This document shows positions 7,992-24,271 of a stretch of DNA of 36,991 nucleotides, one piece after another. The stretch comes from Flavobacteriales bacterium (GTDB lineage Bacteria > Bacteroidota > Bacteroidia > Flavobacteriales > Flavobacteriaceae), in contig SGZG01000013.1 of the NCBI GenBank assembly GCA_004214185.1, positions 1 through 36,991 of the forward strand, given 5' to 3'. The notes beneath the pieces were generated by a model. It made no database searches. It saw only the letters and a program-made list of their open reading frames with translations, and was not told the origin of the DNA. Position 1 is the stretch's first letter; every line of letters starts with the position of its first letter. The translations under genes and the position numbers were made by a program.

Positions 7992-9176
7992 TTATATTAC
8001 ACCTAACTTCTTACCTACTTTATAAAATGAATCAAGAGCTTTATCTATATTTTGTTTAGAATGAGCTGCTGATAATTGAACTCTTATTCTAGCTTGACCT
8101 TTGGGAACTACAGGATAAAAGAAACCAATTACGTATATTCCTAATTTTAATAATTCACTTGACATTTTTTGTGCTAAATGGTCATCATAAAGCATAACTG
8201 GAACAATCGGATGGGAACCTGGTTTTATGTCAAACCCAAAATCTGAAATCTTCTCTCTAAAATATCTCGTATTTTCTTTAAGTTTATTGAGATGTGAAGA
8301 ATCTTTTTCTAATTCATCTAACACACCAATTGAGGCACCTACAATTGATGGAGCTAGTGTATTAGAAAATAAATAAGGACGTGACTTTTGCCTCAATAAT
8401 TCAATAATTTCTTTGGGACCACTAGTAAAACCTCCTGATGCTCCACCAAGAGCTTTACCCAATGTTCCAGTGATTATATCAACCTTATCCATAACACCAA
8501 GTTCTTCAGGAACTCCTTTTCCATTAGGACCAATAAAACCAGTAGAATGGCACTCATCAGACATTACAAGTGCATCATACCTAGATGCTAAATCACATAT
8601 TTTATCTAATTGTGCTATTGTGCCATCCATAGAAAAAACTCCATCAGTTACAATTATTCTATTTCTTGCTTCTTTTGAATTTATTAACTGAATCTCTAAA
8701 TCTTCCATATTATTATGCTTGTATCTAAATCTTTGAGCCTTACATAATCTAATTCCATCTATTATAGAAGCATGATTAAGCTCATCGCTTATAATTGCAT
8801 CTTCACTATTAAATAATGGTTCAAACAATCCTCCATTAGCATCAAAAGCAGCAGCATACAAAATAGTATCTTCTTTTTGCAAAAAATTAGAAATTTTCAT
8901 TTCAAGTTCTTTGTGAATATCTTGAGTTCCACATATAAATCTTACGGAAGCCATACCAAAACCGTAGTTGTCTAATGTTTTCTTTGCTTTATTTATAACA
9001 TCTTTATTTGATGCTAATCCTAAATAATTGTTAGCACAAAAGTTTAAAACCTCTTTATTATTAACTGTAATTTCAGACTGTTGTACAGAGCTGATAATTC
9101 TCTCATTTTTAAATCTTCCAGAAATTTTAACTTCATCCAATTCTTTAATAAGTCTTTTTTGTATAGATTCGTACAT
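7992..9176 (-). CDS. kbl: Glycine C-acetyltransferase (2-amino-3-ketobutyrate CoA ligase)
   Basis: PLP enzyme of the alpha-oxoamine synthase family (394 residues) that cleaves 2-amino-3-oxobutyrate with CoA to glycine and acetyl-CoA. The PLP lysine is K241 in [13 protein letters not shown], and [15 protein letters not shown] (about 207-221) holds the PLP-stacking region. [12 protein letters not shown] at the N terminus and length match Kbl closely. The sister enzymes BioF and serine palmitoyltransferase are alternatives by family, but the divergent threonine dehydrogenase 43 bases away strongly favours Kbl. Confidence 0.93.
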
Positions 9177-9219
9177 ATATTACTATTATAATTAATAAAA
9201 GTATAATTTTTATTTAGCA

Positions 9220-10134
9220 ATGGAAAGAATATTAATTACTGGTGCTATGGGGCAACTTGGATTAGAATTCATAAAATTCTTTTCCAAACAGAACGTTTAT
9301 ATTCTTGCAACTGACATAATAAAACCAAAAATTAAATTAAGTTGTGATTTTCTAATTGCTGATGCAACAAATAAAAGTAACATTGATGCCATAGTTAAAC
9401 AAAATAGAATAACTACAATTTACCATTTAGTAGCTGTGCTTTCTGCAAAAGGTGAAAAAAACCCATTTAAAGCCTGGCAAATTAATATGGAAAGTTTTCA
9501 GAACATTATTGAAATTTCAATTAAAAATAATATTAAGAAAATATTCTGGCCTAGTTCAATTGCCGTTTTTGGAACAAAATCAAATCTCAAAAATGTTGAT
9601 CAGGATCCAATTTTAAATCCAGAAACCATATATGGTATTTCAAAACTAGCTGGTGAAAAACTAATAAATTATTATAACAAAAAATTTAATTTAGATATTA
9701 GGTCTCTCAGATATCCTGGTATTGTATCATTCAACTCCAAGCCTGGCGGTGGAACAACTGATTATTTTATGGAAATGATTGAAAAGCTAAAACAAGGTGA
9801 AAATTACACTTGTTTTTTAGAAAAAAACACCAAACTTCCAATGTTGTACATTGATGATGCTATTTTGGGAACAATAAAATACATGTCAATGAATAAAAAT
9901 AAACTAAGCATTAAAGATTCTTACAACATTACAGGATTTAGTATTACTCCATTAGAATTAGAAGACAAATTAATTAAATTGGGATGCAAAGGAAAAGTTA
10001 TCTATAAACCAGATTATAGAGATAAAATTGCAAAAACATGGCCACGAAAAATAAAGGACGAAAAAGCAAAAGAAGATTGGGATTGGAAAGTCGAATTTGG
10101 AATTGATCAAGCACTTAATGAAGCATTTAAGTAG
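9220..10134 (+). CDS. tdh: L-threonine 3-dehydrogenase, SDR (GalE-like) type
   Basis: Extended SDR of 304 residues that oxidises L-threonine to 2-amino-3-oxobutyrate with NAD+. The dinucleotide motif is GAMGQLG (8-14); the catalytic set is S112/S113 and Y138-K142 (YGISK). SLRYPGIVS, the glycine-rich GGGTTDYFMEMI, PMLYIDDAI and the C-terminal WPRKIKDEKAKEDWDWK are hallmarks of the short threonine dehydrogenase known from Flavobacterium and animals, unlike the zinc MDR-type E. coli Tdh. Divergent from kbl, so the two form a complete threonine-to-glycine pathway. Its 3' end overlaps the convergent DUF2452 gene by 8 bases. Confidence 0.93.
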   Translation: MERILITGAMGQLGLEFIKFFSKQNVYILATDIIKPKIKLSCDFLIADATNKSNIDAIVKQNRITTIYHLVAVLSAKGEKNPFKAWQINMESFQNIIEISIKNNIKKIFWPSSIAVFGTKSNLKNVDQDPILNPETIYGISKLAGEKLINYYNKKFNLDIRSLRYPGIVSFNSKPGGGTTDYFMEMIEKLKQGENYTCFLEKNTKLPMLYIDDAILGTIKYMSMNKNKLSIKDSYNITGFSITPLELEDKLIKLGCKGKVIYKPDYRDKIAKTWPRKIKDEKAKEDWDWKVEFGIDQALNEAFK

Positions 10135-10821: not shown

Positions 10822-11628
10822 TTAATCAATATTAAATTTTTTAATTCTAATATTTCTAAATTCTACAGGATGACCTTCAGATTGAAGCGATATATATCCA
10901 TCAACAAGAGGCTCACCAATTCTATTTAAATAATTTTCGGGTATTTTATCTCCTCCTACTCTTAAATTTGAATAAGAAATAACGGTATCATTCTCAACTA
11001 TATGTTGAACAATTTTATTGGATTTAACAATTACTTCAACTTTAACCCAATCATCATTATGATATGTTTTGGAATTAGAATTTATACAGTGATATTTTGC
11101 TATCTCAGAGTTGATATCAACATCAATTCCAGGTGAACACATATTTGCTGTGGATCTTTCACCAGTTCCCAATCCTCCTAAAAGTTGGACCTCAGAACTA
11201 ACAGGAAAATCTTGTTCCTTTAGCATTGTAGATGGATGCTGACTATGAAGCATTATTCCACTATTTTTAATTGACCATCCTGGAGCACCTTTCAAATGTT
11301 CACCACTAAACTTATATTCTAAACTAAGATGATAATTTTTAAACTTAGATTTAGTGTAAAAAATATGACCAAATCTATCATCAAAGTTTTCATAATTTTC
11401 ATAAGAAACTTTTAAGGAACCGTCTTTTACCTTAAATGTATTTTTAAAATTATTGCCAAATTCTTCACCTCGAATTTTAATTTCCCATCCATCAAAATCT
11501 TCTCCGTTAAAAATGGTTTCCCATCCATTTGTTTCTTTAAAATCATCATCAATTTCTAAATTGCTGTAAATAATAATTACAAAGAAAATTATCAATATTC
11601 CAACTAAACTAAGATTTCTATTTTTCAT
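10822..11628 (-). CDS. Membrane-anchored DUF1080 (3-keto-disaccharide hydrolase-like) protein
   Basis: 268 residues. An N-terminal hydrophobic segment (about 8-23) serves as signal anchor; the absence of an obvious lipobox cysteine argues against a lipoprotein. The rest is a DUF1080/concanavalin-like beta-sandwich: WETIFNGEDFDGWEI at the start, LSLEYKFSG, NSGIMLHSQ, and a C-terminal GYISLQSEGHPVEFRNIRIKKF, all typical of this family. Some members hydrolyse 3-keto-glycosides, others only bind sugars. Its start overlaps the stop of the preceding saccharopine-dehydrogenase-like gene (ATGA). Confidence 0.87.
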   Translation of the reverse strand: MKNRNLSLVGILIIFFVIIIYSNLEIDDDFKETNGWETIFNGEDFDGWEIKIRGEEFGNNFKNTFKVKDGSLKVSYENYENFDDRFGHIFYTKSKFKNYHLSLEYKFSGEHLKGAPGWSIKNSGIMLHSQHPSTMLKEQDFPVSSEVQLLGGLGTGERSTANMCSPGIDVDINSEIAKYHCINSNSKTYHNDDWVKVEVIVKSNKIVQHIVENDTVISYSNLRVGGDKIPENYLNRIGEPLVDGYISLQSEGHPVEFRNIRIKKFNID

Positions 11629-12848
11629 AAATGCTTGATATTAAAAGTTAATCCAGAGTTGTTTTTTAACCTTTCTAATAAATTTTCTCCCATTGCTATG
11701 GAAGGTGTAATAACCCCATTACTACCATTTAATTGATCCACAGCTAAACAAACAGCAGATTCACTAAGCATTTTTGATGTTGATCCGTATCCAGGATCCA
11801 TATCCCCTGTAACTTTTGCTACTGAGTTTGATCCATCTTTGTATGTAACATAGAATCTTAAATTAAAATACCCATTTTCACGATCTTTTTTGGATGGACC
11901 TTCACCAGCACTGGGTAAAATTTTATCAACAATTTTCTTTATCATTGATCCAGGTTTTGCCAGCATTACAATTGCAATGGGAATAGACATCAAAATCCCT
12001 TTAAGTCTACCATTAAATCCCTTACCACTCAAAGTTGCTTCATCATATTCAAAATCTTTTCCATATAAATAACCGCTTAAAGCATTACTCCTTCTTACTA
12101 TCTTAGTATTGATTGCTGCCATTATAAATGGACTGATCCAATTATTTGAAGTCTTATCAAATTTTACTTTTCTTAGATCGTGTTTGTCCGGACCACTTTG
12201 TTCTCCGTTAGGATTTAATCCATATGGATTAATCACGGTTTTAAAAATTTCCTTGTCTTTAAGAGCTTCTTTATTTACGTTACTTAAACTTTCATAAGTA
12301 CCACCACTAATACCACCTTTTGCACCAGCAACCCTCATTTCAATTTTACATATAGTTTTATTTAATTTTAAAGCATTTTTATAGATAAAATAAACACCCA
12401 TATCTGAGGGAATTGAATCAAACCCACAACAGTTAACAATTTTGACATTATTAGATTTAGCTTTTTGATGATAGTGGTCAATCATTTTTCTAATCCACTG
12501 AACCTCACCAGCCAAATCACAATAATTTGTTTTACTTTCAACACATGCTTTAACCAAATTTGATCCGTATAGCGCATATGGACCAACAGTTGTACAGACA
12601 ACCTTAGTTCTTTTAACCATAGATTGAAGACTAGCTAAATCATCACTATTAGCAGAAATAATAGGAATTGTATCATCAGCAAAATTTAAACGAACTTTAT
12701 TTAATTTTTCAATACTTCTACCAGCTATTGCCCATTTAAGACTTTTATTTTTGTAGTTGTTATAGATATATTCAACAACTAAGGAACCTGTAAATCCTGT
12801 AGCCCCCCAAATTATAACATCAAATTCTCTATTGCTTATCATAATCAC
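11625..12848 (-). CDS. Saccharopine dehydrogenase-like / trans-acting enoyl reductase family oxidoreductase
   Basis: A 407-residue protein with an N-terminal Rossmann motif GATGFTGSLV (about 15-24), then IAGRSIEKL and TTVGPYALYGSNLVKAC...YCDLAGEVQW. These are characteristic of the SCCPDH/mycobacterial trans-enoyl-reductase branch, not of true lysine-pathway saccharopine dehydrogenases. C-terminal blocks such as GEGPSKKDRENGYF and GDMDPGYGSTSKMLSESAV also fit that branch. Substrate is unknown, with lipid-linked reduction a possibility. The start could be the Met at residue 1 or 3. It is coupled by ATGA overlap to the DUF1080 gene. Confidence 0.85.
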   Translation of the reverse strand: MIMISNREFDVIIWGATGFTGSLVVEYIYNNYKNKSLKWAIAGRSIEKLNKVRLNFADDTIPIISANSDDLASLQSMVKRTKVVCTTVGPYALYGSNLVKACVESKTNYCDLAGEVQWIRKMIDHYHQKAKSNNVKIVNCCGFDSIPSDMGVYFIYKNALKLNKTICKIEMRVAGAKGGISGGTYESLSNVNKEALKDKEIFKTVINPYGLNPNGEQSGPDKHDLRKVKFDKTSNNWISPFIMAAINTKIVRRSNALSGYLYGKDFEYDEATLSGKGFNGRLKGILMSIPIAIVMLAKPGSMIKKIVDKILPSAGEGPSKKDRENGYFNLRFYVTYKDGSNSVAKVTGDMDPGYGSTSKMLSESAVCLAVDQLNGSNGVITPSIAMGENLLERLKNNSGLTFNIKHL

Positions 12849-13200: not shown

Positions 13201-14262
13201 ATGAAAGATATAGTAGTTTTAGGTTTAGGTAAAGTTGGAACTCTAGTAGGTGTTCTACTAAGTAAAAAATTCAATGTTACTGGAATTGATAAGAAAAAAC
13301 CACACTATGATTTCGAGCTACCATTCAGGGTTTTGGAGTGTGATGTTAAAAACGAAAATGATCTTGAAAAAATATTCAAAAAAAATGACACAATAGTTTC
13401 AGCATTACCTTATTTTTTAAACAAAAAAATAGCAAAAATTTGCAGTGATTTAAATATGAATTATTTTGATCTTACTGAGGATATAGAAACAACAAATTAC
13501 ATAAAAGAACTTAGTAAAAACTCCAATAAAGTCATGGCTCCTCAGTGTGGTCTTGCTCCGGGATTAATTGGAATCATTGGAAACAATCTGGCTTGTGAAT
13601 TTGACAAGTTAAGAGATATAGAGCTAAGAGTTGGTGCACTTCCAAGATATCCTAATGGACAGTTAGCATACTCATTTACATGGTCGCCTGAGGGAGTTAT
13701 CAATGAATATATAAATGATGCACAAGTAATTCAAAATGGTGTAAAGAAAATGGTTCCTTCATTAGATGGATTTGAGTATATAAATATTGAAGGGCAAGAA
13801 TTTGAAGCTTTTGCAACATCTGGTGGTTTAGGAACAATGTGTGATACTTACGAAGGTAAAGTTGATACATTGAATTACAAAACAATCAGATATCCAGGTC
13901 ATGGAAAACTGATGAGATTTTTGATGTATGAACTTATCTTAAAAAATGATAAAATTCAGTTAGAAAAAATACTTAGCAATGCAAAACCACCAGTAAAAGA
14001 AGATGTGGTATATGTTTATGCTGTAGTTGAAGGATGGAAAAAAGATAAGATTTCTAGAAGCGAATATTTTAAAGCATTTTATCCAATTGATATTGATGGT
14101 CAAACATGGAGGGCAATTTCTTGGACTACAGCGGCATCACTTGTGTCGGTTATAGAAATGATACACGAAGGTTTATTAGAAAAAGAGGGCTTTATAAAAC
14201 AAGAGGAAATTCCGTTTGATAAATTCTTAAAAACAGAAGCAGGAAAATTATTTTTAGATTAA
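13201..14262 (+). CDS. L-lysine 6-dehydrogenase-like protein (saccharopine dehydrogenase family)
   Basis: 353 residues. The N-terminal Rossmann motif is VLGLGKVGTLVG (6-17). Conserved blocks PQCGLAPGLIGI, LRVGALPRYP, VIQNGVKKMVPSLDGFE, EAFATSGGLGT and LNYKTIRYPGH correspond one by one to those I recall in Geobacillus lysine 6-dehydrogenase (EC 1.4.1.18), which oxidatively deaminates the epsilon-amino group of lysine to 2-aminoadipate semialdehyde. Length also fits LysDH (about 385) better than saccharopine reductase (about 450). It is 9 bases upstream of a DUF1338 gene, supporting a lysine catabolic role. A related saccharopine-linked enzyme is the main alternative. Confidence 0.82.
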   Translation: MKDIVVLGLGKVGTLVGVLLSKKFNVTGIDKKKPHYDFELPFRVLECDVKNENDLEKIFKKNDTIVSALPYFLNKKIAKICSDLNMNYFDLTEDIETTNYIKELSKNSNKVMAPQCGLAPGLIGIIGNNLACEFDKLRDIELRVGALPRYPNGQLAYSFTWSPEGVINEYINDAQVIQNGVKKMVPSLDGFEYINIEGQEFEAFATSGGLGTMCDTYEGKVDTLNYKTIRYPGHGKLMRFLMYELILKNDKIQLEKILSNAKPPVKEDVVYVYAVVEGWKKDKISRSEYFKAFYPIDIDGQTWRAISWTTAASLVSVIEMIHEGLLEKEGFIKQEEIPFDKFLKTEAGKLFLD

Positions 14263-14271
14263 CTTTAAGTA

Positions 14272-15168
14272 ATGAAGTTTCAAAATAAAAATACTATTAA
14301 AATTGTTCTTGAATCTCTTTTTTCTACATATTCTGAAAGAGTTCCTGATGTAAAGAAAATCACCAATGCGATGGTGTTAAAAAAAATTGTTTCTGATCAA
14401 TCTGAAATTATTAATGATCATATTGCATTTAGAACAATGGGCGTTGAAAATTTAGGTATTAAATCTTTTGAAAAAATTTTTCTTCATCATGGCTATAAAA
14501 AAAAAGATTATTACTTTTTTAAAGAAAAGAAATTAAATGCATTCTGGTATTCTCACCCTGGCAAAAACATGCCAAGAATTTTTATTAGTGAATTAATAGT
14601 TGACGATCTTTCACAAGATTCTCAAAAAATTATAAGGAGTTATACAAATCAAGTAAAAAAAGATCCTGTAGATCAAATTAACCTTGATGATGCGAAAGAG
14701 ATAATAAATTTTCTAAGTAACCCCCTTTGGAGTTTACCAACACTTAGTGATTATAATCAACTTTTGAAAGAGACTGAGTATGGATCATGGGTCGTATACA
14801 ATAGATATTATTTAAATCACTACACAATAAGTGTTCATGAACTTAAAGAAAATTATAACTCTCTAGAAAAGTTTAATAATTTTCTTATTAGCATAGGTAT
14901 TAAACTGAACGATTCAGGCGGAATCATAAAAAAAAGTAAAGATGGACTACTTTTACAAAGCAGTTCAGTAGCTAACAAAATAACTGCAAATTTTGAGGAA
15001 GGAAAATCATTAATTTCTGGAAGCTATGTTGAGTTTGCAGAGAGAAAAGTTCTACCAAAATTCAAACACCTAAAAAAAATAAAATCTATACACAGAAGAG
15101 AAGGTTTTGAAACATCAAATGCAGATAAAATATTTGAAAGCACTTATCAAAAACAAGTAAATAAGTAA
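14272..15168 (+). CDS. DUF1338 protein, 2-oxoadipate dioxygenase/decarboxylase-like (HglS family)
   Basis: A 298-residue DUF1338 protein. Members such as Pseudomonas putida HglS are Fe(II) enzymes turning 2-oxoadipate into D-2-hydroxyglutarate in lysine catabolism. The expected pattern is visible: H50 and R54 in DHIAFRT (the His-Arg four-residue spacing known from HglS), H183 in LNHYTIS and E254 in GSYVEFAER, giving a plausible 2-His-1-Glu metal site plus the substrate arginine. At 298 residues it is shorter than the proteobacterial enzymes. Its place next to a lysine dehydrogenase-like gene strengthens the assignment. Confidence 0.85.
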   Translation: MKFQNKNTIKIVLESLFSTYSERVPDVKKITNAMVLKKIVSDQSEIINDHIAFRTMGVENLGIKSFEKIFLHHGYKKKDYYFFKEKKLNAFWYSHPGKNMPRIFISELIVDDLSQDSQKIIRSYTNQVKKDPVDQINLDDAKEIINFLSNPLWSLPTLSDYNQLLKETEYGSWVVYNRYYLNHYTISVHELKENYNSLEKFNNFLISIGIKLNDSGGIIKKSKDGLLLQSSSVANKITANFEEGKSLISGSYVEFAERKVLPKFKHLKKIKSIHRREGFETSNADKIFESTYQKQVNK

Positions 15169-16293
15169 TTAATAATTATTAAATTTTGCTACTCTGTCTA
15201 AATGATAATTTGAATCACCAAAAATTCTTTGTGCAACTCTTGTTTTTTTAAGAAAAAATCCAATATCAGCATCATCAGTTACACCAATTCCTCCATGCAT
15301 TTGCACTGCCTCATTAGTTACTAACTTGGCTGTTAAACCTAGTTTTGATTTTGCTAGGCTAGCAAGCTCAGGTAAATTTTTAGAGTCTGAATCAACCGAT
15401 TGAAGAGCTTTTAAAACAATTGATTTGCACAACTCTATTTCCCCAAACATTATTGCAGACCTATGTTGTAAGGCTTGAAAGGATCCTATTTTAACTCCAA
15501 ATTGTTCTCTTTCCTTTAAATATTGCATCGTCATCTCAAAAGCTTGTTGGATATTTCCCAACATTTCGGCAGCTAATCCAACACAAGCAATATCAAAGGT
15601 CTTTTCTAAAATTTTTTGACCATCCTCCTCAGTTGATAAAAAGTGATCTTTTGATAGCTCCACATTATTAAATGAAATATCAGAATAAATTTTAGAGTCC
15701 ATGTGCACTTTATTGTCAAAGGTGATTCCTTTTGATTTGGATTCTACAATAATTAAATTTAAAATTCCAGTGTATTCAGAATTTGCTGAAACGATCAAAT
15801 AGTCAGAAATTGATCCATCAATTACAAACCTCTTTTTACCATTTAAAATAAATTTTTCTTTATTTTTTGAAACGATTGATAAATCAACATTTCGGTTATG
15901 GTGAGAACTTTCCTCGTGAGCTAGTGTACAAAGCTTATTTCCGCTCATTATCTCATCAAAAAGTTTACTTTTTAAAACTTCATTTTTGGATAAAGAAATT
16001 AATGTTGTTGAAACTAAAACAGTTGAAATCATTGGAGAAACAGTTAGCTTTCTTCCTGTCTCTTCAAGAACTTGTCCCAAACCAACATAACCAAAATTCA
16101 GACCATTATATTTCTCTGGAATTGTTAATGCTGTCCACCCCATTTCAACCATTTCTTTCCATAAATTAGAATCAAACTGATTATAATTTTCATCTCTTAA
16201 TTTTCTCATTAGAGATATTGGAGATTTTAAATCCAATAATTCTTTTGCTGAGGATTTGAGCATATTTTGCTCTTCATTTATTACTAATGACAT
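15169..16293 (-). CDS. Acyl-CoA dehydrogenase family protein, subunit-like (ACAD 1)
   Basis: 374 residues with the N-terminal helical domain, central beta domain and C-terminal four-helix domain of acyl-CoA dehydrogenases. LAHEES (about 123-128), REQFGVKIGSFQALQH and QMHGGIGVT (331-339) are the FAD-binding/dimer motifs. Where MCAD has the catalytic YEGT glutamate this protein has FGDSNYH (358-364), and the isovaleryl-CoA-dehydrogenase position also lacks Glu. This is a pattern seen in the second subunit of heteromeric ACADs such as those of steroid side-chain degradation. Last gene of the seven-gene operon, 5 bases after ACAD 2. Confidence 0.92.
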   Translation of the reverse strand: MSLVINEEQNMLKSSAKELLDLKSPISLMRKLRDENYNQFDSNLWKEMVEMGWTALTIPEKYNGLNFGYVGLGQVLEETGRKLTVSPMISTVLVSTTLISLSKNEVLKSKLFDEIMSGNKLCTLAHEESSHHNRNVDLSIVSKNKEKFILNGKKRFVIDGSISDYLIVSANSEYTGILNLIIVESKSKGITFDNKVHMDSKIYSDISFNNVELSKDHFLSTEEDGQKILEKTFDIACVGLAAEMLGNIQQAFEMTMQYLKEREQFGVKIGSFQALQHRSAIMFGEIELCKSIVLKALQSVDSDSKNLPELASLAKSKLGLTAKLVTNEAVQMHGGIGVTDDADIGFFLKKTRVAQRIFGDSNYHLDRVAKFNNY

Positions 16294-16298
16294 AAACT

Positions 16299-17492
16299 TT
16301 ATTTTGATGGGAGTCCAAGGACTCTTTTTGCTATTATGTTTAATTGAACTTCATGTGTACCTCCTTCAATGGAATGCCCTTTAGAACGACAGAAGTATCT
16401 TGCGTATACTCCGTTATTTGATTCTTCACTAGTCCATTCAGTTGAATTAAATCCATTAACTTCTAATCTTAATTCCTCTTTTTGCATTGCTAGTTCAGTC
16501 CCGTAATATTTAAAAAATGACGATACTGCACCAGAATTATTTCCTGCCTTTTGCTCGTCTAGTGCCCTTTGAATAGTTAACTCAAATATCTTTTCATTCA
16601 TCTCAAGATTAGCAATCTTTGATCTAATAGAATCGTTTGATAACAATCCGTTTGTTATTCCAATTGATTCAATTGCTACTTCACTCAATGCCATTTTCTT
16701 TTCTGTTTCTCCAATACCACCAATCATTTGTCGCTCATGAGTCAATAAATACTTAGCAATGGTCCAACCATCATTTAAAGTACCAACCAAATTCTTTTTT
16801 GGAACTTTAACAGAATCAAAAAATGTTTCTGTAAAAGGAGATTTACCACTTATTAATTTAATAGGTCTTGTTGAAATTCCCTCGGAGCTCATATCGATTA
16901 ACAAAAAACTAATTCCTGTATGTTTAGATTCAGAACTAGTTCTTACTAAACAAAATATAAAATCTCCTTTATCTCCATATGATGTCCAAACTTTAGATCC
17001 TGTTACTAAAAAGTGATCACCCTTATCTTCAGCTTTTGTCTGAAGATTGGCTAAATCACTTCCCGCATTTGGTTCACTGTAACCTTGGACCCATCTGATT
17101 TCACCTCTGCATATTTGATTTAGATAATATATTTTTTGATCTTCAGTTGCAAACTTTAAAAGCGCAGGACCGAGCATTGAAATACCAAAATTAATATGGG
17201 GTTTTCTGCAGCCTAATCTTTGCATCTCTTGATTCAAAATATTGTTTTGAACAGAGCTAAGTCCTCCTCCACCATATTTAGTTTCCCAGTAAGGAACAAT
17301 CCATTTTTTTTCAAGCATTCTTTCAAACCAAACTTTCTGGTCTTCAGAGTTAAATTTTCCTTTTCTTCCTCCCCAATATAATTGCTTAGCATCAGTGACA
17401 GGTCCTCGCATAGACATTGGACAATTTTCCTCTAACCATTTTCTAGTTTCTAATCTAAAATCAGTTAAATCAACTTTAAGTTGTGTTTCCAT
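16299..17492 (-). CDS. Acyl-CoA dehydrogenase family protein (ACAD 2)
   Basis: 397 residues. GYSEPNAGSDLANLQTKA (137-154) and VTGSKVWTSYG are the classic FAD/substrate motifs. The C terminus SIEGGTHEVQLNIIAKRVLG has E376 one place before the usual catalytic position. HERQMIGG places E253 where isovaleryl-CoA dehydrogenase has its base, so this is the more likely catalytic partner of ACAD 1. The insert with YWGGRKGKF (about 40-47) is typical of large-substrate ACADs. Probable role: alpha,beta-desaturation of the pathway acyl-CoA. Spacing to neighbours is 5 and 6 bases. Confidence 0.92.
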   Translation of the reverse strand: METQLKVDLTDFRLETRKWLEENCPMSMRGPVTDAKQLYWGGRKGKFNSEDQKVWFERMLEKKWIVPYWETKYGGGGLSSVQNNILNQEMQRLGCRKPHINFGISMLGPALLKFATEDQKIYYLNQICRGEIRWVQGYSEPNAGSDLANLQTKAEDKGDHFLVTGSKVWTSYGDKGDFIFCLVRTSSESKHTGISFLLIDMSSEGISTRPIKLISGKSPFTETFFDSVKVPKKNLVGTLNDGWTIAKYLLTHERQMIGGIGETEKKMALSEVAIESIGITNGLLSNDSIRSKIANLEMNEKIFELTIQRALDEQKAGNNSGAVSSFFKYYGTELAMQKEELRLEVNGFNSTEWTSEESNNGVYARYFCRSKGHSIEGGTHEVQLNIIAKRVLGLPSK

Positions 17493-17498
17493 ATTGTA

Positions 17499-18281
17499 TT
17501 ATTTTCCTTTAAAATCAGCTTTTCTTTTTTCCAAAAAAGCAGAGACTCCCTCTTTTAAATCTTCACTATGAAATGCTGCAACTTGTTCTTTTGCCTCAAA
17601 CTCAATAGTGTCTAATAAATCATTATTCATGGAAAAAATCATGTCTTGCTTCGTTATACCTAATCCGATTGTTGGTTTTTTTGATAAATCTTGGGCCCAA
17701 TTTTTAGCTACATTTAAAATTTCATTTGTTTCAACAAGTTTGTTTGTCAAACCTAGTTTTAAACATTCCTCACCCATCACTCTTTTACCTCTTGTAGCAA
17801 TTTCTAGAGCCTTGCTGTAACCCACTTGTCTTGAAAGCAACCAACTTGCACCTCCGTCAGGTCCTAAACCAATATTGATAAAAGCATAAAGTAGTGCACT
17901 TTCTTTACTCATAACTCTAAAATCACAAGCTAAAGCAAAAGCTGCACCTACACCAGCAGCAGTTCCATTAATAGCACCTATAATTGGTTTTCTTAGACTT
18001 AAAAAATTATTTAAAATTGGTTTATAGTTATCAATTATATAATCTCTAGAATCTTCAGCAGATAAGGTTCCTATAGTTGTTAAATCTGCTCCAGCGCAAA
18101 ATCCTTTTCCATTTCCTGTCAAGACTACTGCTCTTATTTTATCATTATTTTTAACGACAGAAAAGGCATGGTTTATTCCCTCAATTAAATCATGGTTTAC
18201 TGCATTGTATCTCTCTGGTCTGTTGAAAGTTATAATTGCAGTACTTTCAATAATTTCTACTAAAACAGATTTATTCTCCAT
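17499..18281 (-). CDS. Enoyl-CoA hydratase/isomerase, PaaG-like
   Basis: 260-residue crotonase. The oxyanion motifs are FCAGADLT (61-68) and GTAAGVGAAFALACD (106-120). The two hydratase glutamates (rat E144, E164) are replaced by A114 and F134, while D142 in GLGPDGGASWLL lies where PaaG has its catalytic aspartate. It is therefore more likely a double-bond isomerase (PaaG or dienoyl-CoA isomerase-like) than a hydratase, and hydration would fall to the adjacent MaoC protein. The C-terminal EGVSAFLEKRKADFKGK is family-typical. It lies in the operon between MaoC and ACAD 2. Confidence 0.92.
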   Translation of the reverse strand: MENKSVLVEIIESTAIITFNRPERYNAVNHDLIEGINHAFSVVKNNDKIRAVVLTGNGKGFCAGADLTTIGTLSAEDSRDYIIDNYKPILNNFLSLRKPIIGAINGTAAGVGAAFALACDFRVMSKESALLYAFINIGLGPDGGASWLLSRQVGYSKALEIATRGKRVMGEECLKLGLTNKLVETNEILNVAKNWAQDLSKKPTIGLGITKQDMIFSMNNDLLDTIEFEAKEQVAAFHSEDLKEGVSAFLEKRKADFKGK

Positions 18282-18290
18282 AACTATTAT

Positions 18291-18767
18291 TTATTCATAT
18301 GCTATCGCTAAGGTCTCAGCAACACATACAGGTTTTTCTTGTCCCTTTAATTCCACTGTGATTCCAAGTTTGTATTTTGCACTACCCTCTTTTTTTTCAC
18401 ATTCAATCAAAGATACTCTTCCTCTAACAAAACCTCCAGAGGGAGTTGCACTTGTAAATCTAACTCTATCAACTCCATAATTTACTCCCATCTTTACATT
18501 TTCTATAGTTAGAGTATCATAAGAAAATCTGGAGGCTAATGATAAAATCATAAAACCATGAGCTATTGTTGTTTTGTATGGAGAATACTTTTTAGATTTT
18601 TCTTTATCAATATGAATCCACTGTTCATCTTCTGTGATTTTTGCAAAAACATTTATATTGTCCTGTGTTACTTCAATCCATTTTGAAATCCCTAGTTCTT
18701 TACCAACCAGTTTATTTAATTCATCTAGATTTTTAACTTTTGTACTGTAAGCATTATTATTGTCCAT
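18291..18767 (-). CDS. MaoC-like (R)-specific enoyl-CoA hydratase
   Basis: 158-residue single hot-dog protein. The R-hydratase active site is seen as D47 and H52 in TEDEQWIHID (spacing of five, as in PhaJ) followed by the hydratase-2 motif IAHGFMILSLAS (68-79). It would hydrate the enoyl-CoA made by the ACAD pair to the (R)-3-hydroxyacyl-CoA, which fits the FabG/PhbB-type reductase encoded next to it. Cytoplasmic, no signal peptide. Nine bases separate it from the crotonase gene. Confidence 0.92.
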   Translation of the reverse strand: MDNNNAYSTKVKNLDELNKLVGKELGISKWIEVTQDNINVFAKITEDEQWIHIDKEKSKKYSPYKTTIAHGFMILSLASRFSYDTLTIENVKMGVNYGVDRVRFTSATPSGGFVRGRVSLIECEKKEGSAKYKLGITVELKGQEKPVCVAETLAIAYE

Positions 18768-18784
18768 AATTTTGTTTTTAAAAT

Positions 18785-19525
18785 TTACATTGGCATTGCG
18801 CCACCATTTGCATGTAGAGTTATTCCGCTAACAAATCCGGATTCTTTGGATGCTAAAAACAAATAAGCGTGTCCCATATCTTCAGCTGTTCCTATTCTAC
18901 CCACAGGAATCATTTTTATTCCAGCATTTATCACTTCCTCAGGCATACTATCTGTCATTGCAGATTGAATAAAACCAGGTGCAACAGCATTCGCAGTAAT
19001 TCCAAACCTTCCAACTTCTTTACATAAAGCTCGTGTAAAACCAGAAATCCCTGCTTTAGTAGCACAATAATTGGTTTGTCCAAAGGCACCAGCTGTACCA
19101 TTAATTGAAGAGGCTGAAACAATTCTACCATATCCATTTTCTTTCATGTGAGGAATAACTGCCCTAGTTACAACATATAGAGATTTCAGATTTACATTAA
19201 TAACTGAATCCCATTCTTCCTCTGACATTTTTAAGAAAGATCTATCTCTTATAATTCCAGCATTATTAATTAAAATTTCGATTTTACCATGTTTTTCAAT
19301 AATTTCCTCAATTGCATTATCTACAGAATTTTGATCTGTTACATCTACTTCCTGAAAGAATATTTTTCCACCATTTTGTGTTATTTCGTTTACTGTTTCG
19401 GTTCCATCTAAAACATCCCACAATGCAACTGTTGCTCCTTCTCTGCAAAAAACTTCACAAATTCCCTTACCAATACCACGAGTACCACCAGTAACGATCG
19501 CAACTTGACCTTCTAATCTTTTCAT
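18785..19525 (-). CDS. SDR oxidoreductase, 3-hydroxyacyl-CoA dehydrogenase/FabG-like
   Basis: Classical SDR of 246 residues: TGGTRGIG (12-19), NNAG (87-90), catalytic S140, Y153 and K157 (SSINGTAGAFGQTNYCATK). Overall similarity is to acetoacetyl-CoA reductase PhbB/FabG. In this operon it more likely works in the oxidative direction on the hydroxyacyl-CoA made by MaoC, feeding the thiolase. FabG of fatty acid synthesis is the alternative, but the catabolic neighbours and absence of acpP/fabF argue against it. Confidence 0.9.
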   Translation of the reverse strand: MKRLEGQVAIVTGGTRGIGKGICEVFCREGATVALWDVLDGTETVNEITQNGGKIFFQEVDVTDQNSVDNAIEEIIEKHGKIEILINNAGIIRDRSFLKMSEEEWDSVINVNLKSLYVVTRAVIPHMKENGYGRIVSASSINGTAGAFGQTNYCATKAGISGFTRALCKEVGRFGITANAVAPGFIQSAMTDSMPEEVINAGIKMIPVGRIGTAEDMGHAYLFLASKESGFVSGITLHANGGAMPM

Positions 19526-19565
19526 ATTTATGTATTATTTAATTAAACTTTATTATGTATTTGAT

Positions 19566-20747
19566 TTAAATCACTTCAAATAAACCTGCAGCTCCCATGC
19601 CACCACCAACACACATTGTTGAAACTACGTATTTTGCTCCTCTTCTTTTTCCTTCAATAAGGGCATGACCAACCATTCTAGATCCACTCATTCCATATGG
19701 ATGTCCTATTGAAATAGAACCACCATTAACATTTAATATATCATTTGGAATTCCAAGCACATCTCTACAATAAATCACCTGAACAGCAAATGCTTCATTA
19801 AGTTCCCAAAGTCCAATATCACTCATTTTTAGACCATTTTGTTTTAAGAGTTTTGGAACAGCATAAATTGGTCCAATACCCATTTCGTCTGGTTCACACC
19901 CAGCTACTGCAATTCCTCTGTAAATTCCAAGTGGAGTTACATTATGCTTTGCTACAACACTTGATTCCATTAATACACAAGCAGATGCACCGTCAGAAAG
20001 CTGACTTGCGTTTCCAGCTGTAATTGATCCTCCTTCAATCACTGGCTTAAGTAAACTCAAGCCCTCAATTGTTGTAGTTGGTCTGTTACACTCGTCTTTA
20101 GAGGAAGTCTTTTCAACAAATGAAATTTCCTTAGTTTCCTTGTCCATAACCCCCATAGTTGTAGTAACGGAAATAATTTCATCATCAAATTTTCCTTCTT
20201 TTTGTCCTTTTGCAGTTCTTAATTGGCTCTGAAGAGAATACTCATCCTGAGCTTCTCTTGAAATGTTATATCTATTGGCTACAACTTCAGCAGTTTTAAG
20301 CATCGGCATGTATATATGTTTATGCTTGGCTATTAATTTTTTATCAACCCATCTATCCAGATTCATTTTTTCAGTTTGTACCAAACTTATTGAGTCTAAT
20401 CCACCTCCAACGACAACATCCATTCCATCACTTATAATTTGTTTTGCAGCAGTTGCAATAGCCATCATTCCAGATGAACACTGTCTATCTAATGTCATTC
20501 CACTGACAGTAACTGGAAGTCCAGCTGTTAAAGCAGCATTTCTTGCAACATTACAATGTGTAGTTCCTTGTTGTAAAGCTGCTCCCATAATAACATCATC
20601 AACTTTTTCTGGATCAACTCCTGATCTTTTAACTGCTTCTTGAATTGCCCAACCTGCCATGGTTGGAGCTGTAGTATTGTTAAATGTTCCTCTGTATGAT
20701 TTTGTCAAAGGAGTTCTTGCTGTTGAAACAATTACCGCATCTCTCAT
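19566..20747 (-). CDS. Acetyl-CoA C-acyltransferase (thiolase)
   Basis: 393-residue thiolase that cleaves a 3-oxoacyl-CoA with CoA. All catalytic residues are present: nucleophile C90 (DRQCSSG), H349 (ISIGHPYG) and C379 (TMCVGGG); [10 protein letters not shown] gives the NEAF motif. The sequence ([32 protein letters not shown]) belongs to the FadA-like group common in sphingomonad and marine gammaproteobacterial catabolic clusters rather than to housekeeping AtoB. Only 2 bases separate it from the MDR gene, and 40 bases precede the SDR. Confidence 0.93.
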
Positions 20748-20749
20748 AT

Positions 20750-21745
20750 TTATACTTTTAATATTAGTTTACCTTTTTTATCTCCGTTAAATAATTTTTT
20801 AAAAACATCATAAAAATTTTCTATACCTTCATAAATATCCTCTTTTGATTTTAAATTTCCATCTAAAATCCATTGAGTCATTTCTTTGGTTGCAGTTGGA
20901 TAATTTTTAGCATAATCAAAAACAACCATTCCTTTCATTGATGCTCTATTAACTAACAAAGATAAATAGTTATTAGGTCCTTTAGCTGACATTTCATTGT
21001 ATTGAGAAATAGCTCCACACACTACAATTCTAGCACCCATTCTCAAGAAGACTAGGGCAGCGTCTAAAATTTCTCCCCCAACATTATCAAAATAAACATC
21101 AATACCGTCAGGACACTCTCTTTTTATTCCTCTTTTTACACTTTCATTTTTATAGTCAACACAGCCATCAAAACCAAGTTCATCAATAACATAATTACAC
21201 TTATCCTTACCACCTGCAATACCAACAACCTTGCATCCTTTAATTTTTGCAATTTGTCCTACTATGCTTCCAACTGCACCTGCAGCAGCTGAAACTAGTA
21301 CAGTGTCACCTTCTTTTATTTTACCGACTTCAAGAATACCAAAATATGCTGTCATCCCTGGCATACCCAAGGTTCCAATAAAAGTTGGTAGAGGAATTTT
21401 AGTACTAGGTACCTTAAAATATCCCTTTCCATTAGTAATTGAATATTCTTGAACACCACCCCATCCCGAAAGAATGTCACCTTTATTAAAATTTGGATTG
21501 TTTGATTCTATAACTTCTCCAATTGTTCCTGCTCTCATGACTTCACCTATTTGAACTGGAGGAATGTATGATCTTGTTTCATTTAACCATCCTCTCATAG
21601 CTGGGTCAAGAGAAACGTATAAATTTTTCAAAAGAACTTCACCATCACTAATTTCCCTTACATTTTCAGTTTCGTGAACCCATGTATCTTTGGAGGGAAA
21701 ACCTGAGGGTCGAGATGATAGTTTAACAACTTTATTTTCTAGCAT
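20750..21745 (-). CDS. Zinc-free MDR oxidoreductase (CurA/prostaglandin-reductase-like)
   Basis: Medium-chain reductase of 331 residues related to NADPH-dependent curcumin/double-bond reductase and leukotriene B4 dehydrogenase. The start [43 protein letters not shown], the NADPH motif [17 protein letters not shown] and [14 protein letters not shown] are family hallmarks, and no structural or catalytic zinc cysteines are present. I chose the ATG at 21745: the longer frame from 21826 adds 27 hydrophobic residues foreign to the family and would run through the palindromic operator. It would reduce an enone or 2-enoyl double bond. First gene of the seven-gene operon. Confidence 0.9.
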
Positions 21746-21786
21746 TATGTTTTGTGTTTTGTAATTGAAAATTAAAAATATACATA

Positions 21787-21804
21787 TTAGTATATAAATA
21801 CTAA
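21787..21804 (-). promoter_or_regulatory. Palindromic operator TTAGTA-N6-TACTAA (site 1, MDR operon)
   Basis: Exact inverted repeat TTAGTA-TATAAA-TACTAA, 41 bases upstream of the MDR start and downstream of the terminator of the carboxylase/crotonase unit. The same motif occurs at four other intergenic positions in this window, all before genes of the same catabolic island. Confidence 0.65.
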
Positions 21805-21809
21805 AATAT

Positions 21810-21834
21810 AAAAAAATACTATGCAAGCATAGTA
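21810..21834 (-). terminator. Rho-independent terminator after the carboxylase/crotonase unit
   Basis: On the minus strand, TACTATGC-TT-GCATAGTA (arms at 21817-21824 and 21827-21834, perfect complement) is followed directly by seven T. It lies 20 bases after the crotonase stop, separating that unit from the MDR operon. Confidence 0.8.
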
Positions 21835-21853
21835 AACTTAAAAATAATATTAG

Positions 21854-22666
21854 TTATTTCCAGTTAGGATTTCTTTTTTCTTTAAAAGCAGAAACGCCTT
21901 CTTTTGCATCATCAGAATTTAAAACTAATTCTAACATTTTTAGAAGATATTCATGATTTGATTCACTTGAACTTATTTTATCAAAAGCTTCAAGGCCATA
22001 TTGAATTGCCTTTGGAGAATTATCAGTTACTTCCATGAGCCAATTATTTACGATTAAATCAATATTTTCTTTAGAACATATCTTTGATACTAAACCTAAT
22101 GAGTGGGCCATTTCAGACTTTAAATTATAACCTCTAACACACCAATCAATAACATTTCTTGCAGGCATAATTTTAGAAAGAGACTCCATAACTTGCATTG
22201 GAAAAATTCCTCTTTTTACTTCAGGAAGACCAAATTTTAAATCATCTAAAGAAATAACATAATTACATCCTGCAACTAATAATAATCCACCTGCATAAAC
22301 ATCACCCTCTAGTTGGCAAATTTTTGGCTTATAAAGTTTATTGAATATTTCAGCGATTAAAATTTTTGAGTTTGGCTGTGGAACAGTTGAAATATTATTT
22401 TCTAAATCTCCAGAAACTGCTTTCAAATCTAATCCTGAGCAAAAAACATCTCCATTTGCTTTTAAAAGTAATGCTCTTACATTATCGTTATAAGATGCAT
22501 ACTGAAAAACAAATGCTATTTCATTAATCATCTGAGGATGAAGTGCGTTTTTTTTATTTGCTCGATCTAAAAATACAGTAAGTACATGATTTTTTTCATT
22601 CCATTGAATGAAATGAAATTTTAATGTATTTATTTTTTTTATATCCTCTAATTTAAAATAACCCAT
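21854..22666 (-). CDS. Enoyl-CoA hydratase/isomerase family protein, carboxylase-linked
   Basis: 270-residue crotonase. The oxyanion motifs are FCSGLDLKAV (75-84) and DVYAGGLLLVAGCN (122-135). Of the two hydratase glutamates, the second is present (E149 in FGLPEVKRGIFP) while the first is replaced by L129, as in several methylglutaconyl/isohexenylglutaconyl-CoA hydratase-related or isomerase-like members. It lies 6 bases after the acyl-CoA carboxylase beta gene, so it may act on the carboxylated glutaconyl-type intermediate. The N-terminal 20 residues are an extension beyond the usual crotonase start. Confidence 0.88.
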   Translation of the reverse strand: MGYFKLEDIKKINTLKFHFIQWNEKNHVLTVFLDRANKKNALHPQMINEIAFVFQYASYNDNVRALLLKANGDVFCSGLDLKAVSGDLENNISTVPQPNSKILIAEIFNKLYKPKICQLEGDVYAGGLLLVAGCNYVISLDDLKFGLPEVKRGIFPMQVMESLSKIMPARNVIDWCVRGYNLKSEMAHSLGLVSKICSKENIDLIVNNWLMEVTDNSPKAIQYGLEAFDKISSSESNHEYLLKMLELVLNSDDAKEGVSAFKEKRNPNWK

Positions 22667-22672
22667 ATCAAA

Positions 22673-24271
22673 TTACATTCTAAATATCCCAAAAGAGTCT
22701 GATCCCTTGATTTCAGTACTATAAACTGTTGCTAAAGCTAATGACAAATATTTTCTAGTTTCTGTTGGGTCGATAACTCCATCATCCCAAACTTCAGATG
22801 TTGTATGCCAAACACTAGCTCTTTTGTCGGCATCTTCAGCTAAAGCTTTTTTTTCTTTTTTTAATTTACTTTCATCTATTGCCCTGTTTGATGATGCTGC
22901 AGCATTTCTTTTAATTATTTCCATTACACCAGAAAGCTGGTCTGCTCCCATGACACCTGATTTTACATTTGGGTATGAAAATAAAAACCTTGGGTCAAAT
23001 GATCTACCACACATTGCATAATTTCCAGCTCCATAAGAATTTCCAACTTGTAAACTAATATGAGGAACTGTACTTCCAGAAACTGCATGAATTAGCTGAG
23101 CTCCAGAATTAATCATACCGTTTTGCTCATATCTTTTTCCAACCATAAATCCTGTAGTATTATGAACAAAAAGTAACGGTGTATGGGATTTATTTGCTAA
23201 TTGAATAAAATGAGTTGCCTTTCGGGCAGACTCAATAAAGATTACTCCATTATTAGCTATTATACCCACAGGATATCCATTTATTTTAGTCCAACAACAA
23301 AACATTGTTCTCCCATAATTCTCTTTAAACTCGACAAACTCAGAACTATCAACAAACCTTTTTACAAGATCTCTAACATCAAAAGGTTTTTTCAAATTTG
23401 AGGGAATAATACCTAATATTTCTTTTGCATCAAATTTTGGTGGAACAGAATCTTTTGTAAAGAGATTTTCTGTTGGTTTTTTTATTTTTTTTATTAATTT
23501 TTTTGTTATTGCTAAAGCTTCTTTTTCATCTTTTGCTAAAAAATCTGAGACCCCAGAGATACTACTATGCATTTGTGCTCCACCAAGCTCTTCATCGTTA
23601 GAATCTTCATTAGTGGCCATTTTAACTAATGGTGGACCAGCTAAAAAGACTTTAGCAGCATTTTTTTGAAAAATAGAATAGTCTGACATCCCCGGAACAT
23701 ATGCTCCACCTGCTGTTGCACTTCCAAAAACTACGGAAATTGTTGGGATACCCTCTTTTGATCTTCTTGACATTTCCATAAAAAATTTACCATAATTATT
23801 AAAAACTCTATCTTGATCTGGTAAATTTGCTCCACCGCTTTCTACTAAATTTATAGTCAACAATTTATTTTCTTTTGCAATTTGTGAAAGTCTTAAATTT
23901 TTTAGGCTAGTGGCATAATCAACTGCTCCAGCTTTTCTTGTAGCTACGTTTGCATTAATTAGACAGAGAACATTTGATATATATCCAAGAACTACTACTG
24001 TAGTCCCCCCCGCACCAAAACCTTTCTCGTGCTTTAAGCCAGCCAATGGCATTAGTTCAATATGAGGCTTTCTTTTATCAAGTAATAAATCTATTTTTTC
24101 CCGAGCAAGTAATTTGTTTCTACTTCGAGCTCTTTTAATTTGAGAGTCTGTCCCCTCTTGTTTAGACAACTTATAGTATGACTGAAGCTCTTTTAATAAT
24201 TTTTTCATTGAAATCTCGTTTTCAATAAAATTTGAACTTAAAACGTCAACACTAGGTTTTCTAACTTTCAT
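22673..24271 (-). CDS. Acyl-CoA carboxylase, carboxyltransferase (beta) subunit
   Basis: 532 residues, the size of methylcrotonyl-CoA/geranyl-CoA carboxylase beta subunits. Two crotonase-like halves are seen. The N half has RARSRNKLLAREKIDLLLD, GAGGTTVVVLGYISN and GSATAGGAYVPGMSDY (about 184-199); the C half has GNSYGAGNYAMCGRSFDPRFLFSYPN and GVMGADQLSGV. EELGGAQMHSSISGVSD is close to the MCC-type motif. Biotin would be carried by an alpha subunit, which is not in the window. The likely substrate is a beta-methyl-enoyl-CoA. The promoter would lie in the 197-base region shared with the divergent ligase gene. Confidence 0.92.
   Translation of the reverse strand: MKVRKPSVDVLSSNFIENEISMKKLLKELQSYYKLSKQEGTDSQIKRARSRNKLLAREKIDLLLDKRKPHIELMPLAGLKHEKGFGAGGTTVVVLGYISNVLCLINANVATRKAGAVDYATSLKNLRLSQIAKENKLLTINLVESGGANLPDQDRVFNNYGKFFMEMSRRSKEGIPTISVVFGSATAGGAYVPGMSDYSIFQKNAAKVFLAGPPLVKMATNEDSNDEELGGAQMHSSISGVSDFLAKDEKEALAITKKLIKKIKKPTENLFTKDSVPPKFDAKEILGIIPSNLKKPFDVRDLVKRFVDSSEFVEFKENYGRTMFCCWTKINGYPVGIIANNGVIFIESARKATHFIQLANKSHTPLLFVHNTTGFMVGKRYEQNGMINSGAQLIHAVSGSTVPHISLQVGNSYGAGNYAMCGRSFDPRFLFSYPNVKSGVMGADQLSGVMEIIKRNAAASSNRAIDESKLKKEKKALAEDADKRASVWHTTSEVWDDGVIDPTETRKYLSLALATVYSTEIKGSDSFGIFRM

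Follow-up and report, generated by a model that had tools for sequence, protein, structure and literature searches.

A lysine 6-dehydrogenase-like gene paired with a 2-oxoadipate dioxygenase/decarboxylase gene, and a probable alternative route of lysine degradation in Flavobacteriaceae

Introduction

Two adjacent genes of a Flavobacteriales bacterium (GTDB family Flavobacteriaceae), one encoding a lysine 6-dehydrogenase-like protein (LysDH) and the other a 2-oxoadipate dioxygenase/decarboxylase of the HglS/FLO7 type (HglS), raise the question of how this organism degrades lysine. They lie on contig SGZG01000013.1 of assembly GCA_004214185.1, a stretch of 36,991 nucleotides analysed here at full length and referred to as the window; it is contig C5 of a 1.38-Mb assembly (G000) of 60 contigs that is 83% complete. 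An initial annotation, made from the sequence of the window, had described two open reading frames (ORFs) 9 bases apart, and their coordinates, strand and intactness were confirmed, bases 14263-14271 separating the stop codon of ORF 1 (LysDH) from the ATG of ORF 2 (HglS) on the forward strand.

We consider it probable that LysDH opens a lysine degradation route and HglS acts late in it, a route that seems to replace the saccharopine/glutaryl-CoA route in this lineage. Both enzymes belong to known kinds; what is apparently undescribed is their combination. No title or abstract among the matches listed describes a LysDH-HglS pairing, and an earlier mention is possible.

Sequence and fold of LysDH

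Pfam searches of ORF 1 returned Sacchrp_dh_NADP (45 bits) and Sacchrp_dh_C (70 bits), both above cut-off, and the closest protein of solved structure by sequence was PH1688 of Pyrococcus horikoshii (3abi; E 8.5e-24). The same entry, titled L-lysine dehydrogenase in the fold search, ranked first in Foldseek for an AlphaFold2 model of LysDH (alignment of 35 sequences including the window protein; mean pLDDT 88). The model superposed on 3abi_A with a Z of 37.3 and a root-mean-square deviation of 2.4 over 337 residues, the best fold in the PDB, the runners-up being carboxyspermidine dehydrogenase (second-ranked, Z 32.1) and saccharopine reductase (Z 30.4). With both domains present and 3abi nearest by sequence and by fold, the earlier description of this gene as lysine 6-dehydrogenase-like is borne out. 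The short chain of 353 residues also falls in the range of about 350-370 expected of a lysine 6-dehydrogenase (EC 1.4.1.18), the 3abi chain having 365 and a relative encoded on a Ruegeria plasmid 368. In a lysine dehydrogenase of Geobacillus, Y238, T240 and R242 are the modelled lysine-binding residues (excerpt of PMC6697735), and a stretch of like spacing was found in LysDH (Table 1). Its Y226, K227 and R230 were invariant among the 35 sequences; T228 was invariant in 10 sequences, but is Ser in the Ruegeria plasmid relative.

Family and conserved residues of HglS

ORF 2 matched the HGLS family of Pfam (PF07063, the DUF1338 of the initial annotation) with 208.3 bits at a cut-off of 25. Its closest solved sequence was 6w1k, which its authors present as FLO7 in complex with substrate (excerpt of PMC7286885). 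A VOC fold can be inferred for the window protein from its 200-bit match to 6w1k. The His-Arg/His/Glu residues that the protein had been said to keep are indeed in place, and the predicted ligands H50, H183 and E254 and the predicted substrate-binding R54 (Table 1) were identical in 49 of 49 aligned proteins, namely that of the window and 48 encoded next to LysDH. The excerpt of PMC7286885 reports HglS, FLO7, AT1G07040 and YdcJ to be active on 2-oxoadipate and predicts the same for every member bearing the Arg; judged by these residues, the window HglS very likely acts on 2-oxoadipate too. The family is uncommon, PF07063 being found in 25 of the 199 genomes of our family sample and in 23 of the 345 genomes of our phylum sample.

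Table 1. Positions in the window of the two genes and of the residues discussed
Feature	Position	Strand	Basis
Lysine 6-dehydrogenase-like gene (LysDH), 353 aa	13201..14262	+	Pfam domains, PDB relative, AlphaFold2 fold match
2-oxoadipate dioxygenase/decarboxylase gene (HglS/FLO7-type, PF07063), 298 aa	14272..15168	+	PF07063, 208 bits; 6w1k, E 3.2e-58
Y226-K-T-I-R230 of LysDH	13876..13890	+	Y-x-T-x-R spacing as in Geobacillus Y238/T240/R242 (from excerpt); matched by spacing only
Predicted metal ligand H50 and predicted 2-oxoadipate-binding R54 of HglS	14419..14433 (codons 14419-14421 and 14431-14433)	+	FLO7 alignment
Predicted metal ligand H183 of HglS	14818..14820	+	FLO7 alignment
Predicted metal ligand E254 of HglS	15031..15033	+	FLO7 alignment

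Proposed pathway

In the route that we propose, LysDH would use NAD(P)+ to take the epsilon-amino group off L-lysine oxidatively; the product, alpha-aminoadipate semialdehyde, is in equilibrium with piperideine-6-carboxylate. An alpha-aminoadipic semialdehyde dehydrogenase (AASADH), encoded elsewhere in the window genome and downstream of HglS in relatives, would convert the semialdehyde into alpha-aminoadipate, and a putative aminotransferase would turn this into 2-oxoadipate. HglS, dependent on Fe(II) and O2, would then decarboxylate and hydroxylate 2-oxoadipate to 2-hydroxyglutarate, from which a dehydrogenase, of the YdiJ type where present, would form 2-oxoglutarate. In the window lineage the module would replace both the saccharopine enzymes, lysine-ketoglutarate reductase (LKR) and saccharopine dehydrogenase (SDH), and glutaryl-CoA dehydrogenase (GCDH). 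The conversion of lysine through the semialdehyde and 2-oxoadipate to 2-hydroxyglutarate had been predicted from the window sequence. The agreement of fold, sequence, neighbourhood and missing usual enzymes supports the steps from lysine to the semialdehyde and from 2-oxoadipate to 2-hydroxyglutarate; for the window genome we infer the substrates, the direction of the pathway, and the transamination and 2-hydroxyglutarate steps.

Gene neighbourhood

Relatives of LysDH were retrieved from a species-genome collection, and the neighbourhood counts given here cover the best 80 of at least 545. HglS was directly adjacent on the same strand at 48 of these loci (40 downstream and 8 upstream of LysDH), while the genes outside the module varied (as many as 28 kinds per side when unclassified ones are counted); the adjacency of LysDH and HglS is thus beyond chance. 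Record titles of the HglS-adjacent loci name Flavobacteriaceae, Saprospiraceae, Jiulongibacter, Xanthocytophaga, Flavihumibacter and Pedobacter steynii, which we take to span several orders of Bacteroidota.

AASADH was present at 37 loci and occurred together with HglS at 27. In G004, a genome of the same genus as the window (93% complete), LysDH, HglS and AASADH follow one another at distances of 9 and 2 bases; the third gene scored 794 bits with NF050084 (AASADH; cut-off 730) and its protein matches solved alpha-aminoadipic semialdehyde dehydrogenases, or antiquitins. The AASADH of the window genome shares 76% identity with its G004 counterpart and reached 808 bits with NF050084, above cut-off; it lies on contig C58, so that the initial annotation had been right to place the semialdehyde dehydrogenase elsewhere. 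Matches to AASADH (E 1e-60) were found in 22 of the 24 genomes checked, at an identity of at least 61%. On contig C58 a gene for a Rieske ring-hydroxylating oxygenase (L146:4394-5530, reverse strand) lies 35 bases from AASADH and diverges from it.

The fullest arrangement was seen in Pedobacter steynii, where genes for LysDH, HglS, AASADH and a 979-residue YdiJ-like protein stand in a row, accompanied by a divergent LysR regulator. The best NCBIfam match of the 979-residue protein was D-2-hydroxyglutarate dehydrogenase YdiJ, at 646 bits and hence below the cut-off of 1350. YdiJ-type relatives were encoded within the fetched stretch of 9 of the 80 loci, all 9 with HglS. Near some LysDH loci stood a 2-oxoacid dehydrogenase E2 gene (D45) or genes for a histidine kinase and a LytTR regulator (D34/D35). 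What had been described as a two-gene module is therefore a genuine pair, but in several Bacteroidota groups it forms part of a module of three to four genes.

Distribution relative to the usual route

The LysDH-HglS pair was found in 7 of the 199 family genomes (G000, G004, G043, G064, G137, G143 and G192), G064 being counted as a pair genome with its HglS gene broken by a contig end. LKR was scored as a protein with the human AASS chain 8e8u as its best solved relative (threshold E 1e-15) and had a match in 162 of the 199 genomes. The match was missing in all seven pair genomes versus 30 of the 192 others (one-sided Fisher p 5e-6, relatedness ignored). GCDH was scored by a motif that we assume to mark the enzyme; a protein that bears it has solved glutaryl-CoA dehydrogenases as its best matches. 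Present in 174 of the 199 genomes, the motif was missing in 6 of the 7 pair genomes versus 19 of the 192 others (p 1e-5, relatedness ignored). A direct search with the GCDH protein in 22 genomes gave a match of 78-94% in 13 and nothing over 38% in G000, G004, G043, G064, G137, G192, G035, G099 and G185. A Lys9-type saccharopine dehydrogenase did not appear in the seven pair genomes either, in a search that was queried with LysDH and is hence indirect.

Proteins of the alanine dehydrogenase family were checked as possible LKRs in G000, G143, G064 and G137, with G004, G043 and G192 left out. G000 has a single AlaDh_PNT_N protein, which is an alanine dehydrogenase, the 398-residue protein of G143 matches solved alanine dehydrogenases, and the protein of G064 is 46% identical to that of G143; none of the three was retained. 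Lysine 6-aminotransferase was likewise discarded as an entry enzyme, TIGR03251 matching in none of the 199 family genomes (E 1e-60), and LhgO (L-2-hydroxyglutarate oxidase) as a sink, with matches in 14 of the 199 genomes at E 1e-60 and in none of the 7 pair genomes. A FAD-oxidase_C dehydrogenase was present in four of the seven pair genomes (G043, G064, G137 and G143) and in G099.

A number of findings weigh against the proposed reading. LysDH is remote from function-tested enzymes, being 23% identical to 3abi when the two structures are aligned. Among the best 80 LysDH loci, 22 lack HglS as well as AASADH, a few of these 22 lying on short contigs. The annotated genes around LysDH loci included no aminotransferase, no genome-wide search having been made; the pair genome G192 (78% complete) had no AASADH match; and 2-hydroxyglutarate dehydrogenases of the FAD-oxidase_C and LhgO types were not found in G000, G004 and G192, of which G000 and G192 are incomplete. 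The pair genome G143 retains GCDH. In G137 an alanine-dehydrogenase-family gene is apparently split over two reading frames (L140:2766-3907); the 151-residue frame had no match among solved structures, and taken with the next frame LKR was no closer than alanine dehydrogenase. The split frame adjoins genes that look agmatinase-like and deoxyhypusine-synthase-like. Three genomes (G022, G041 and G089) carry a LysDH-like gene (53-56%) with LKR present and no HglS. FLO7-type HglS, defined as a protein at least 55% identical to that of the window, was found in 17 genomes, and it is not tied to LysDH alone, since seven of these have LKR and GCDH without LysDH and three (G035, G099 and G185) are without a match to LysDH, LKR or GCDH. 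The absence of TIGR03251 at E 1e-60 means that lysine 6-aminotransferase does not explain these three, whose HglS loci are L072 (G035), L067 (G099) and L074 (G185). Small genomes, moreover, are often without LKR and GCDH regardless of the pair: when 44 hand-listed genomes no larger than 2.4 Mb are taken by themselves, the link of the pair with loss of LKR weakens to a p of 0.025 and that with loss of GCDH to 0.003, relatedness again being ignored.

Alternative explanations

The most probable of the alternatives holds that genome reduction and shared ancestry alone account for the link with missing LKR and GCDH, so that the pair would be an addition to the usual route and not a substitute for it. 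We judge it somewhat unlikely, though a serious contender. It draws on the 38 pair-less genomes among the 44 small ones, 19 of which are without LKR and 12 without the GCDH motif, and on the seven FLO7-type HglS genomes that keep both enzymes. Against it stands G143, a 4.4-Mb genome that is 100% complete on one contig and has the pair with no LKR match, and within the small genomes loss of GCDH was commoner with the pair (6 of 6 versus 12 of 38, p 0.003). The pair genomes share ancestry and are for the most part small, so that replacement is suggested and not proven.

It could also be envisaged that LysDH and AASADH mainly make osmolytes in sea water (aminoadipate, or pipecolate via a reductase), with HglS draining the excess. 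Sea sites are named in several record titles of LysDH relatives, and Ruegeria pomeroyi reportedly prefers its lysine dehydrogenase route at high salt, where it leads to the osmolyte aminoadipate (excerpt of PMC4334477). However, the partner of LysDH in 48 of the best 80 loci is a degradative oxygenase, with a YdiJ-type gene near in 9. Moreover, the pair occurs in genera such as Pedobacter and Flavihumibacter, which are largely non-marine, and we hold an osmolyte role to be improbable as the main one.

Very unlikely, in our estimate, is that LysDH is a short, glutamate-forming saccharopine dehydrogenase supplied with saccharopine by a separate LKR, the later steps being unchanged. The superfamily and both Pfam domains, Sacchrp_dh_NADP and Sacchrp_dh_C, are shared, saccharopine dehydrogenases are among the fold neighbours of LysDH (Z 26-30), and plants join LKR/SDH to HglS (excerpts of PMC7286885 and, for LKR/SDH, PMC7253579). 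Yet LKR had a match at E 1e-15 in 0 of the 7 pair genomes versus 162 of the 199 sampled, the window genome being 83% complete, and none of the alanine-dehydrogenase-family proteins checked in the pair genomes proved to be an LKR. Two Lys9-type enzymes (456 and 457 residues) were 25-28% identical to LysDH in local alignment and carry a 67-residue insertion absent from LysDH, whose fold is nearest to lysine dehydrogenase (Z 37.3). The Lys9-type enzyme sampled from a family genome has yeast and human saccharopine dehydrogenase as its best solved matches; these comparisons set the Lys9-type saccharopine dehydrogenase found in other family genomes apart from LysDH as a distinct protein. Least probable of all is action of LysDH on another amine (carboxynorspermidine or another omega-amino acid) with HglS adjacent for historical reasons: the superfamily is broad and carboxyspermidine dehydrogenases give the second-best fold match (Z 32.1), but identity to these in structural alignment is 13-16% versus 23% to lysine dehydrogenase, relatives of about 30% identity and roughly 380 residues occur as separate genes (one in pair genome G137), and the recurring neighbours are AASADH, HglS and YdiJ, with no polyamine genes among those annotated.

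The degradative route through LysDH and HglS thus remains the reading that we prefer. As a wider and more tentative proposal, conceivable but rather less likely than not, a compact route of LysDH, AASADH, aminotransferase, HglS and 2-hydroxyglutarate dehydrogenase may have supplanted the standard route, in its first half and its second, across several lineages of Bacteroidota, genome-reduced Flavobacteriaceae being the clearest case; lysine would then be glucogenic, with 2-hydroxyglutarate an obligate intermediate, and the sink in the window genus would be an enzyme of a not-yet-recognised kind. If the route is as proposed, lysine would be predicted to end up as 2-oxoglutarate in these bacteria instead of acetyl-CoA/CO2, HglS would have a clear physiological partner in organisms other than Proteobacteria and plants, and Pedobacter steynii DSM 19110 is a named strain in which the route is testable. 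For another member of this genus, Pedobacter sp. GW460-11-11-14-LB5 (named in PMC9007349), transposon-fitness data have been published. NCBIfam profile searches gave no name for either LysDH or HglS, and plasmid relatives of LysDH bear labels such as 'saccharopine dehydrogenase family protein'; a lysine-degrading route may for this reason lie hidden in many Bacteroidota genomes.

Comparison with known systems

In Ruegeria pomeroyi, SPO0234 (lysdh) and SPO0235 (aasadh) have been re-annotated on function, and, as in the proposed route, direct epsilon-deamination of lysine feeds AASADH (excerpt of PMC4334477). In contrast to the pair genomes, R. pomeroyi also has LKR (same excerpt), and in the window genome, unlike in this bacterium, AASADH and LysDH are on separate contigs. 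The Ruegeria plasmid relative of LysDH is 38% identical to the window protein and is followed directly by an NF050084 dehydrogenase, above cut-off, a layout that equals the reported lysdh-aasadh of R. pomeroyi; unlike the window, the plasmid had no HglS match within the 13-kb stretch. On this plasmid (L233) the LysDH-AASADH genes adjoin those for cyanophycinase and cyanophycin synthetase, hinting at a link of lysine to cyanophycin-like storage.

The later part of the route resembles that of Pseudomonas putida, where a PF07063 enzyme turns 2-oxoadipate into D-2-hydroxyglutarate within lysine degradation. There, in contrast to the proposed route, HglS belongs to D-lysine catabolism, and its identity to FLO7 is only about 15% (excerpt of PMC7286885 for all three statements). 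The window HglS matches FLO7. Plant lysine catabolism (LKR/SDH, AASADH and FLO7/AT1G07040) shares with the window genome a FLO7-type HglS and an antiquitin-type AASADH, so that the intermediates would be the same from aminoadipate semialdehyde onward; unlike in plants, a lysine dehydrogenase takes the place of LKR/SDH, the pair genomes having no LKR match. The saccharopine/glutaryl-CoA route of most family genomes (LKR, Lys9-type dehydrogenase, AASADH and GCDH) has AASADH of the same kind but other entry and exit enzymes, and neither LKR nor GCDH had a match in the 83%-complete window genome.

Other genes of the window

Convergent with the LysDH-HglS pair is a run of acyl-CoA genes on the reverse strand (15169-24271), encoding two acyl-CoA dehydrogenases (pimeloyl-CoA dehydrogenase models, below cut-off), enoyl-CoA hydratases, a MaoC protein, an SDR, a carboxyltransferase and others; at 8 of the best 80 loci, several of these genes are again found next to LysDH. 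At 10822-12848, also on the reverse strand, another protein with a Sacchrp_dh_NADP domain, this one lacking the C-terminal domain, is encoded beside a 3-keto-disaccharide hydrolase (PF06439), and both have relatives encoded upstream of LysDH at 8 of these 80 loci. Further off, at 7992-10134, a gene for glycine C-acetyltransferase (above NCBIfam cut-offs) diverges from one for an SDR epimerase-like protein, a couple that presumably serves threonine degradation.

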